From Alphaproteobacteria bacterium MarineAlpha5_Bin9 (GTDB lineage: Bacteria; Pseudomonadota; Alphaproteobacteria; HIMB59; GCA-002718135), in assembly GCA_002937895.1 (NCBI GenBank), contig PTKV01000011.1, forward strand, positions 1-64,000: a stretch of 64,000 bases of DNA, in the 5' to 3' direction. Each line of letters starts with the position of its first letter. The stretch's first letter is position 1. The notes below the pieces were generated by a model. That model was given only the letters and a program-made list of their open reading frames with translations, had not been told where the DNA came from and did no database searches. Shown here in pieces: positions 14,247 through 37,786 of the stretch. The position numbers were made by a program, and so were the translations under genes.

Positions 14247-15095
14247 ATGAATATTAAAGGTATAATTTATGCGATTAGTGCTGCTTGTTTCTTTGGTTTA
14301 ATTCCAACAACAGCTAAAATATCTTATGAATATGGAGGAGATCCTAATTTAGCGATTTTTGCTAGATTTTCAATTGCATGTTTTTTAATTGCTTTTCCTA
14401 TTTTTTTTATAAAAATAGATTTTAATGAAATCTTTAAACATTTCTATTTTTTATTACTTATATCTTGTGGATTTATATGCTTAACCTTTGGACTTTTAAG
14501 TTCTGTTAATTATATTCCAGTAAGTTTAACAGCTTTAATTTTTTATACTTACCCACTAGTAATAATTAGTTATTTTTTTATAAAAACTAAAAAATTAACA
14601 ATTTCAAAACTTATAGGTTTTCTTTCAGCTTTTATAGGCTTAGGTTTAGCACTAACTCCTACATTTAGTAATTTAAATATTTATGGTGTTTCGCTAGCCT
14701 TACTAGCTTCTTTTGGGGCGTCAATTATATTAATTACAAATGAGTATCTTGCAAAATATCTTAATGCATTGATTATTCACTCATTCATCAACATTTTATG
14801 TTTATGTTTTTTTATAACCATTATATTAGCATTTGATAATTTAGATTTCGATATTCCTTTATTTGGATGGTTTTTTATAATTTTTGCATCTCTATGCTAC
14901 TTCATTGCTCTTCTATTTCAACTGAATGCAGTAAAAGTTATAGGTTCTACTCAAACCTCATTATTGCTATATCTTGAACCACTTGTTGCAATTTCTTCTG
15001 CAATTTTATTTTTAAATGAAAGCTTAACTTTTTTACAAATTATAGGTGTAATAATAGTCATAATTTCATTAATTATGACTAGTAGAAAATTTTAA
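14247..15095 (+). CDS. EamA/DMT-family transporter
   Basis: Ten predicted TM segments; EPLVAISSAILFLNESLTFLQIIGVIIVIISLI typical of EamA. Confidence 0.82.
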   Translation: MNIKGIIYAISAACFFGLIPTTAKISYEYGGDPNLAIFARFSIACFLIAFPIFFIKIDFNEIFKHFYFLLLISCGFICLTFGLLSSVNYIPVSLTALIFYTYPLVIISYFFIKTKKLTISKLIGFLSAFIGLGLALTPTFSNLNIYGVSLALLASFGASIILITNEYLAKYLNALIIHSFINILCLCFFITIILAFDNLDFDIPLFGWFFIIFASLCYFIALLFQLNAVKVIGSTQTSLLLYLEPLVAISSAILFLNESLTFLQIIGVIIVIISLIMTSRKF

Positions 15096-15123
15096 ATATT
15101 TATAGGAGGAAATGCTATAATAT

Positions 15124-15192
15124 TTATGTTGCTAGAAAATAAAGTACTATGACTACAACTACAATTCCAATAATCCAATACCATCTGTTCAT
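15124..15192 (-). CDS. Unannotated 22-aa single-TM peptide MNRWYWIIGIVVVVIVLYFLAT
   Basis: ATG to TAA ORF preceded by AAGGAG with 5-nt spacing; one hydrophobic helix. Below the ORF-track length cut-off. Confidence 0.5.
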   Translation of the reverse strand: MNRWYWIIGIVVVVIVLYFLAT

Positions 15193-15261
15193 ATCAGCTC
15201 CTTATTTATAATTTAAAGTATCTTATTATTAATATATAAAAATTCAATATTTAATTGACTA

Positions 15262-16251
15262 ATGAAAAAAATAAAAACCATAGGCATTATTGGAACTGGC
15301 TTAATTGGTAGTGGATGGGCTGCTAGAGCTATTCATTATGGTGTAAATGTAATAGGATTTGACAAAAATACAAGTCAAGAATCTAGTTTTAAAGAATCTG
15401 TTAATAGAGCTTTACCTTATTTAAAAAAACTAACATCAGATTTGAAGATGCCTAAAAAAGGGAAACTTTGTTTTACAACAAATTTAAATGAATTAATAAA
15501 TTTATCAGATATTTATCAAGAAAATGTTCCAGAGAATTTAAAACTTAAATCAAGAATTCTCTCAGAGATTGATTTAAATTCCGATCCAAAAAAAATTATT
15601 TGCTCAAGCACTTCAGGATTTATGCCAAGTAAATTACAAAAAAACTTTAAAAATCCTGAAAGATTTTTAGTAGCTCATCCTTTTAATCCTGTATACTTAT
15701 GTCCTTTAGTAGAAATAGTTCCTGGTAAAAAAACTTCAAATCATTTTAAAAAATTAGCTAAAAATTTTTATGAAAATATTGGTATGCATGTGCTTTTAGT
15801 AAGAAAAGAAATACCTGGGCATATTTCTGATAGATTACAAGAATCTATGTGGAGAGAAGTTTTATATTTACTAAAAGATAATGTAGCTAACACAAAAGAG
15901 ATTGATGAATCAATTACTCACGGACCTGGACTAAGATGGTCAATAATGGGCATTAACCAGTTATGGTTTTTGGCAGGTGGCAAAGGAGGGACTAAGCATT
16001 TTATAAATCAGTTTGGTCCTGCACTTAAATGGCCTTGGTCACATATGAAAGCTCCAAATCTAAATAAAAAAATAGTTGAAAGATTTTCAAGAGGCACAAA
16101 AAAACAAACCAATGGAAAATCAATAAATGAAATAGAGAAAATAAGAGATGATTGTTTAGTAGCTATTCTTAAAGTATTAAAAAAGCACAACTTTGCTAGT
16201 GGAAATACATTAAATATTTTTGAAAAAAATTTAAAAAAAATAAATAAATAA
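15262..16251 (+). CDS. L-carnitine 3-dehydrogenase-like (3-hydroxyacyl-CoA dehydrogenase superfamily)
   Basis: GIIGTGLIGSGWAARAIHYG; SSTSGFMPSKLQ; VAHPFNPVYLCPLVEIVPG; LRWSIMGINQLWFLAGGKGG, which resembles LcdH proteins. Confidence 0.72.
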   Translation: MKKIKTIGIIGTGLIGSGWAARAIHYGVNVIGFDKNTSQESSFKESVNRALPYLKKLTSDLKMPKKGKLCFTTNLNELINLSDIYQENVPENLKLKSRILSEIDLNSDPKKIICSSTSGFMPSKLQKNFKNPERFLVAHPFNPVYLCPLVEIVPGKKTSNHFKKLAKNFYENIGMHVLLVRKEIPGHISDRLQESMWREVLYLLKDNVANTKEIDESITHGPGLRWSIMGINQLWFLAGGKGGTKHFINQFGPALKWPWSHMKAPNLNKKIVERFSRGTKKQTNGKSINEIEKIRDDCLVAILKVLKKHNFASGNTLNIFEKNLKKINK

Positions 16252-36406: not shown

Positions 36407-37786
36407 TTAGATTAAAAAAAATGTTGCTAAACCTAAAAAAGATAAAAATCCAAAAACATCAGTAATTGTAGTTAATAAAACCCCTGAAGCAAGTGCGGGA
36501 TCAATTTTAAGCTTATGAAGAGTAATAGGAATAACAGCGCCTACGAAACCCGCTATTAATAAATTAGCTACCATGGCAATTGCTAAAATAAATCCTAAAA
36601 AATTATCACTGAACCAATATGCGGATATAATTCCAGTAATAACAGCGAATATAAGACCATTGATTATTCCAACAAATATTTCTTTACTAATAATTTTAAA
36701 GGTATTGTTAGGTGTTAATTCTCTTGTAGCAATTGCTCTTACAGCTACTGTCATTGTTTGAGTGCCTGCATTTCCTCCCATAGAAGCTACTATTGGCATA
36801 AGAACTGCTAATGCTACAACTTTTTCTATTGAAGCTTGAAAAAAAGCTATAACTATTGAGGCAACTATTGCTGTTAAAAGATTAATTAATAGCCATGAAA
36901 ATCTAGACTTAATAGTATTAATAGTAGCTTCGAAAATATCTATCTGTCCTACACCACCTAATTTTAAAATATCTTCTTCTCTTTCTTCTTCAATAACCTC
37001 AACAACATCATCTACAGTAATAGATCCAATTACATGATTATAATCATCTACAACAGGAGCGCTTACCAGTGCATATTTAGTAAATTGATAAGCAACATCT
37101 TCTTGATCTGTTAAATAATTAATAACTCTTGTTTCTTTATGTTGAATGTTAATAAGAGCAACATCTCTTTTAGAACTCATAATTCTACCAAGTGAAACAA
37201 TTCCAGAAATTTTATTTTTTGAGTCTATTAAATAAATTTCATAAAAATCAATTGGTAAATTTTTTCTCTGTGAACGCAAATAGTCAATAGCTTCTCCTAC
37301 ATTCCAATTGCTGTTTATAGATACAAATTTTCTTTGCATTAATCTACCTGCACTATCTTCTGGAAAAGTTAATCCTTCTTCGATCAATTTTCTTTCAGAA
37401 ATAGGCAAAGATTTTAGAATTATTTCTTGATCTGACTTTTCTAGATCTTCAACAACATCTAAAGCATCATCGGTTTCTAATTCTTTTAATTCTTCTGCTA
37501 GATCTTGTAGATCAATTTTATTAATAATTTCTTCTTTTATTCCATCATTCAAATAAGTTAAAATTTCTGGATCAAACTGATCTTTTAGAATAAGAATAAA
37601 TTTTTCACGGTAATTTGCATCTAAATTTTGTAATATTTCAGCAATATCTGCATTGTGAATTTTTCTAGTAAAATTAAATAAATCATTATTATTAGTAGTA
37701 TCCAAAATTTTTTTTATTTGCTCTAAATATGTCTCAATTAATGTTTCTTTTTTAATTTGAAATATATCTTTGTCTCTTATATTCAT
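36407..37786 (-). CDS. mgtE: Magnesium transporter MgtE
   Basis: N-domain, CBS pair (YDHVIGSITVDDVVEVIEEE), TM domain with MPIVASMGGNAGTQTMTVAVRAIA. Confidence 0.93.
   Translation of the reverse strand: MNIRDKDIFQIKKETLIETYLEQIKKILDTTNNNDLFNFTRKIHNADIAEILQNLDANYREKFILILKDQFDPEILTYLNDGIKEEIINKIDLQDLAEELKELETDDALDVVEDLEKSDQEIILKSLPISERKLIEEGLTFPEDSAGRLMQRKFVSINSNWNVGEAIDYLRSQRKNLPIDFYEIYLIDSKNKISGIVSLGRIMSSKRDVALINIQHKETRVINYLTDQEDVAYQFTKYALVSAPVVDDYNHVIGSITVDDVVEVIEEEREEDILKLGGVGQIDIFEATINTIKSRFSWLLINLLTAIVASIVIAFFQASIEKVVALAVLMPIVASMGGNAGTQTMTVAVRAIATRELTPNNTFKIISKEIFVGIINGLIFAVITGIISAYWFSDNFLGFILAIAMVANLLIAGFVGAVIPITLHKLKIDPALASGVLLTTITDVFGFLSFLGLATFFLI

Follow-up and report, generated by a model that had tools for sequence, protein, structure and literature searches.

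A gene for a peptide of 22-23 amino acids, preceded by its own Shine-Dalgarno sequence, is conserved in the bacterial family GCA-002718135, which very probably belongs to order HIMB59 (AEGEAN-169), and in three of its genera the sequence behind the stop codon is complementary to a loop of the structured RNA IMES-4, which is encoded in the same genomes. The interpretation we favour, by a modest measure, is that the peptide is a small protein of the inner membrane and that, in genera g1, g3 and g5, IMES-4 pairs with the 3'UTR of its mRNA. If this is true, an orphan marine RNA known for years by comparative sequence analysis would be tied to a host family and to a first candidate mRNA target, and a testable target of this kind is a way into the function of IMES-4.

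The window, meaning the whole stretch of 64,000 nucleotides analysed here, belongs to a genome of genus g1 (G000). A sequence-only reading had proposed an unannotated single-helix peptide with a strong ribosome-binding site on the minus strand, where 166 bp separate two plus-strand genes. Translation and coordinates confirm both the reading frame, with its AAGGAG-CTGAT-ATG start region, and its location:

15124..15192, minus strand: 22-codon open reading frame, MNRWYWIIGIVVVVIVLYFLAT and stop, supported by translation, homologs and pN/pS
15190-15192, minus strand: start codon ATG of this frame
15198-15203, minus strand: Shine-Dalgarno sequence AAGGAG, with the 5-nt spacer CTGAT at 15193-15197
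15096-15261: intergenic gap of 166 bp holding the frame
14247-15095, plus strand: EamA/DMT-type transporter gene, one flank of the gap
15262-16251, plus strand: 3-hydroxyacyl-CoA-dehydrogenase-like gene, the other flank

The peptide has a GRAVY of 1.8, and its one helix is a prediction from hydropathy (maximal 19-mer 2.4-2.7), framed by a basic N-terminus and two aromatic belts (W4/Y5/W6 and Y18/F19). No other hydrophobic frame of 18-40 amino acids with a Shine-Dalgarno sequence occurs within the 64-kb window. Since about 0.45 such frames are expected per Markov-1 random window of equal size, the sequence alone could not settle whether the peptide is real. A scan of positions 14900-15500 for sigma-70 promoters yielded no canonical promoter.

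What makes the peptide certain is its conservation. The peptide was used as a query against 100 relatives and a profile was then run against 110 genomes of the family, which recovered one copy each in 20 of the 110 (E<=1e-10), with homologs in g3, g5 and g6 as well as in g1; the next-best profile match (E=0.017) lies inside a long reading frame and represents noise. Start, Shine-Dalgarno sequence, frame and stop are kept in all 20 homologs, the Shine-Dalgarno sequences being comparable and purine-rich throughout, and the loss of frame or ribosome-binding site that the sequence-only reading had named as counterevidence was thus looked for and not seen. The homologs comprise 22 or 23 codons, the sole length change being one whole codon, and share the consensus MNNKWTWIIAAVVVIVILYFVFS, in which W7, Y19 and F20 (consensus numbering) are invariant. 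A comparison of the Ka/Ks type, also suggested beforehand, gave a summed pN/pS of 0.26 over the 20 genomes, with changes at third positions, which indicates purifying selection. For so short a frame, one example of which is not rare by chance, it might be argued that the frame is accidental and that only a function of the RNA or DNA keeps the sequence conserved. The pN/pS value, the third-position changes, the whole-codon length change and the constancy of start, Shine-Dalgarno sequence and stop leave this explanation with very little probability, and judged by its substitution pattern the peptide is a real, conserved gene under purifying selection.

None of the 52 sister-family genomes in the order had a homolog, and 289 sampled genomes of the class gave short chance matches only. 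Searches of Pfam, NCBIfam, PHROGs and PDB sequences, and of viral contigs and phages, returned no significant match to the peptide. When mapped on a protein tree of the deaminase encoded next to IMES-4, the peptide is distributed clade-wise: it occurs across the family, one large clade lacks it, and isolated absences fall mostly in incomplete genomes. It is therefore an old gene that has been passed on vertically and that one clade can do without. For that clade, a CIA30 match was considered as the syntenic counterpart of the locus without the peptide; it was rejected as uninformative, being only distantly paralogous (about 35%), with a different context and no peptide. The result is a conserved family of 22-23-amino-acid proteins, missed by standard cut-offs and gene finders, in an ocean lineage that is both streamlined and abundant.

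At least five distinct neighbourhoods of the gene were seen, and its neighbours are unrelated between genera:

Genus g1 (this genome): DMT / 3HCDH
Genus g5: rppH / SDR-atpC
Genus g3: 2OG-oxygenase-like gene
Genus g6: FMO/CIA30, aldehyde dehydrogenase or others

In the loci read, the gene 3' of the peptide is convergent. A function as leader peptide was rejected, since the neighbours are antiparallel or unrelated and differ between genera. A near-perfect 14-bp inverted repeat with a 5-nt loop (15052-15084), located in the DMT coding sequence at its 3' end, may terminate transcription of the minus strand, although it has no T run.

Small single-pass bacterial membrane proteins of the CydX, AcrZ, KdpF and MgtS class have 20-50 amino acids, one helix and a ribosome-binding site of their own. 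The peptide resembles them in size, in its one predicted helix, own ribosome-binding site and few charges, and in having been missed by annotation, but it differs from them in lacking any sequence relation in the four protein collections named above and in having no partner operon, its neighbours changing between genera. We propose that the gene is monocistronic and that its product would insert as an N-in/C-out single-pass protein of the inner membrane, representing a new family; most likely it would serve as an accessory or regulatory subunit packing against a larger membrane protein.

The more informative parts of the locus are those which the sequence-only reading overlooked, namely the identity of the gene, which stays constant amid changing neighbours, and an element in its 3'UTR:

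15105-15115, minus strand: 3'UTR element GCATTTCCTCC, separated from the stop by 8 nt, candidate IMES-4 pairing site
15093..15126, minus strand: A+T-rich hairpin with CAUUUCCUC in its loop, arms at 15093-15100 and 15119-15126

Five genomes from the three genera g1, g3 and g5 provide the support for this site. Behind the peptide they carry TAA-N7/8-GCATTTCCTC followed by C or T, and the remaining flank sequence differs. In g3 and g5, different stems surround the same loop as in the hairpin of this genome; the z-scores of the hairpins are modest (-1.4 to -4.1). The site is absent from the g6 homologs, where an intrinsic terminator (ACCTCTCTT..AAGAGAGGT) usually stands in its place, and pairing would therefore be unneeded for the peptide in that genus. 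About 40-110 nt past the peptide stop in G018 and G119, other hairpins (e.g. GGAGG..CGAGGGtttaaatCCCTCG..CCTCC) replace the g6 terminator.

An Rfam search identified the other intergenic place with the element as IMES-4 (RF02037; 72.6 bits in this genome), an RNA that reportedly goes back to marine metagenome comparisons by Weinberg and colleagues:

G000:C21:40994-41075: IMES-4 of this genome, on a contig other than that of the peptide

The element GCATTTCCTCC is the reverse complement of the apical third loop of IMES-4, GGGAGGAAAUGC, which is nearly invariant and exact in this genome, so that its own loop is an exact complement of its own 3'UTR element. The first loop, CACGCAAAGG, otherwise conserved, is lost in this genome. 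Of the 110 family genomes 78 have IMES-4; none of the 52 sister-family genomes has it, nor does any other genome in the class sample, so that within this material it is confined to the same family as the peptide; this specificity amounts to a host assignment for an orphan structured marine RNA. The literature searched, mostly outside subscription journals, contained no paper naming IMES-4, be it for a target, a host family or a partner gene. In the family, IMES-4 is a near-universal single locus which ends in a strong intrinsic terminator; it is flanked, in the majority of the genomes read, by anmK or a DMT gene on one side and a deaminase gene on the other. Orthology of the DMT gene in the window with the IMES-4-adjacent DMT gene elsewhere was rejected, the two sharing only weak, general EamA similarity. 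Tandem copies of IMES-4 about 218 bp apart are found in two genomes (G111:C1:43256-43553 and G017:C1:473889-474186), and in the latter the copies differ in their stems and share their loops.

For each genome, pairing was computed between its own IMES-4 loop and its own peptide 3'UTR, except that for G010 the loop of g5 relatives was used. The predicted duplexes comprise 12-13 bp, with energies of -21.7 (G000), -21.8 (G002) and -23.1 kcal/mol (G004, G006, G010); shuffled sequences average -7 to -9 kcal/mol, and 0 of 300 reach the observed values. When the full-length RNAs are cofolded, the interaction amounts to -12.3 to -13.1 kcal/mol in G000, G002, G004 and G006, but only to -1.7 and 0 in a pair of g6 genomes that lack the site. 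In most g6 genomes the 3'UTR offers at best 6 bp to IMES-4 (-9.8), close to the shuffles. Conserved complementarity to an exposed, conserved IMES-4 loop of the same genome is therefore seen in g1, g3 and g5 and not in g6. At one pairing position IMES-4 A faces target U in g3 and C faces G in g5, with an A:A mismatch in g1; over the three genera the comparison yields one change on both sides plus one G-U.

In seven genomes, a search for GCATTTCCTCY returned 28 sites. Nineteen lie within long reading frames, 16 of them antisense, and GGAGGAAATG often encodes Gly-Gly-Asn; the nine intergenic sites are IMES-4 itself (five) and the peptide 3'UTR (four). When the whole window was scanned in 60-nt segments, better pairing than that of the 3'UTR was obtained at only one further place, the antisense strand of an mgtE-like gene, where a 13-nt exact complement of the IMES-4 loop (36767-36779, plus strand) lies across Gly-Gly-Asn codons (GGAGGAAAT). 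As a second target this 13/13 match was rejected, being on the antisense strand like 16 of the 19 coding matches.

The element might instead have nothing to do with IMES-4 and be a remnant or variant of the 5' arm of a terminator (CCTCTC...), or a sequence folding back on the Shine-Dalgarno sequence of its own mRNA. The g6 terminators occupy the same place, the g3 element GCATTTCCTCTCTCT looks intermediate, and in the minimum free energy (MFE) structure of this genome the Shine-Dalgarno sequence is paired with CUCC of the element. Against this, the conserved part includes GCATTT, which is superfluous for a terminator arm as well as for Shine-Dalgarno pairing, and duplexes between the own 5'UTR and 3'UTR are weak, at -5.6 to -8.9 (G000, G002, G004, G006) vs. 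-21.7 to -23.1 with the IMES-4 loop. A chance 11-mer match to the conserved loop is, moreover, very unlikely. On balance we regard this explanation as unlikely, though it is the most serious of the alternatives.

Covariation cannot tell a target of IMES-4 from a mimic, because a sequence complementary to the loop reads, on the opposite strand, as the loop itself. The functional strand could accordingly be the plus strand. The convergent gene, at its 3' end, or an antisense RNA would then contain a hairpin like that of IMES-4 (loop GGAGGAAATGC), which would either mimic IMES-4 or serve as its decoy, or else be an antisense antitoxin against the peptide. In this genome the plus-strand hairpin (TATA-GGAGGAAATGC-TATA) does resemble the third hairpin of IMES-4, and an extended -10-like box, TGCTATAAT, at 15113-15121 on the plus strand would fire antisense to the peptide. 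Its TATAAT is kept neither in g3 nor in g5, however, and in these genera the fold of the plus strand does not surpass that of shuffled sequences. The convergent gene also differs per genus (DMT, rppH, 2OG-oxygenase-like), whereas the spacing between element and peptide stop is fixed; the peptide mRNA is therefore the transcript that would always contain the element. We consider a plus-strand function rather improbable. The fixed spacing seen in the aligned loci argues for a target of IMES-4, without proving it.

With its size and hydrophobicity and the complementary 3'UTR, the peptide also fits the architecture of a type I toxin-antitoxin pair, in which it would be a membrane-depolarising toxin and IMES-4 a trans-encoded RNA antitoxin, comparable to bsrG/SR4 or shoB/OhsC. 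The toxin mRNAs of Bacillus subtilis meet their antitoxin RNAs at the 3' ends, in the case of bsrG/SR4 via loop-loop contacts (PMC6562991). Shared with bsrG/SR4 and txpA/RatA is a short mRNA for a hydrophobic peptide, with RNA pairing at its 3' end, but here the RNA is trans-encoded, the complementarity spans 12-13 bp vs. about 100 bp, and the partners occur apart. The peptide occurs as a single copy, is passed on vertically and is conserved from end to end, unlike BsrG, of which even close relatives preserve the transmembrane domain alone (PMC6562991). The linkage and co-occurrence expected of an antitoxin are not seen, IMES-4 lying on another contig and being present without the peptide, as in the big g6 clade. 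Because g6 genomes keep the peptide, with a strong Shine-Dalgarno sequence, without the site and keep IMES-4 without the peptide, a dedicated toxin-antitoxin pair has a low probability, below that of a plus-strand function.

To return to the favoured reading of a membrane protein with an IMES-4-paired mRNA, in g1, g3 and g5 the short mRNA would end in a hairpin, and 12-13 bp would form between the loop of this hairpin and the third loop of IMES-4, presumed to be a trans-encoded, terminator-ended small RNA. By this loop-loop contact just behind the stop codon, IMES-4 would set the stability, the 3' end or the translation of the mRNA in the cell. The effect could even be a release of translation, since the element also pairs with the Shine-Dalgarno sequence in the MFE structure, in G000 alone. 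Action of small RNAs on 3'UTRs has precedents, such as GadY, which acts on the gadX 3'UTR. Spot 42 is likewise reported to act on the hilD 3'UTR (PMC5991649). Both cases share with ours a small RNA, trans or cis, on a 3'UTR; they differ from it in that the present site lies 7-8 nt past the stop of a 22-codon frame and in a predicted hairpin loop. Whether IMES-4 is a family-specific trans-acting regulator whose third loop kisses the loop behind the stop of this membrane protein family, which would give IMES-4 a first known target and small-RNA control of a micropeptide a new position, we judge to be an evenly balanced question.

Two further Rfam matches had low E-values and scores below threshold, a glycine-GGAnGA riboswitch at L060:573-738 on the minus strand (70 vs. 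110 bits) and Rp_sR47 at L028:2389-2512 on the plus strand (56.5 vs. 60 bits).
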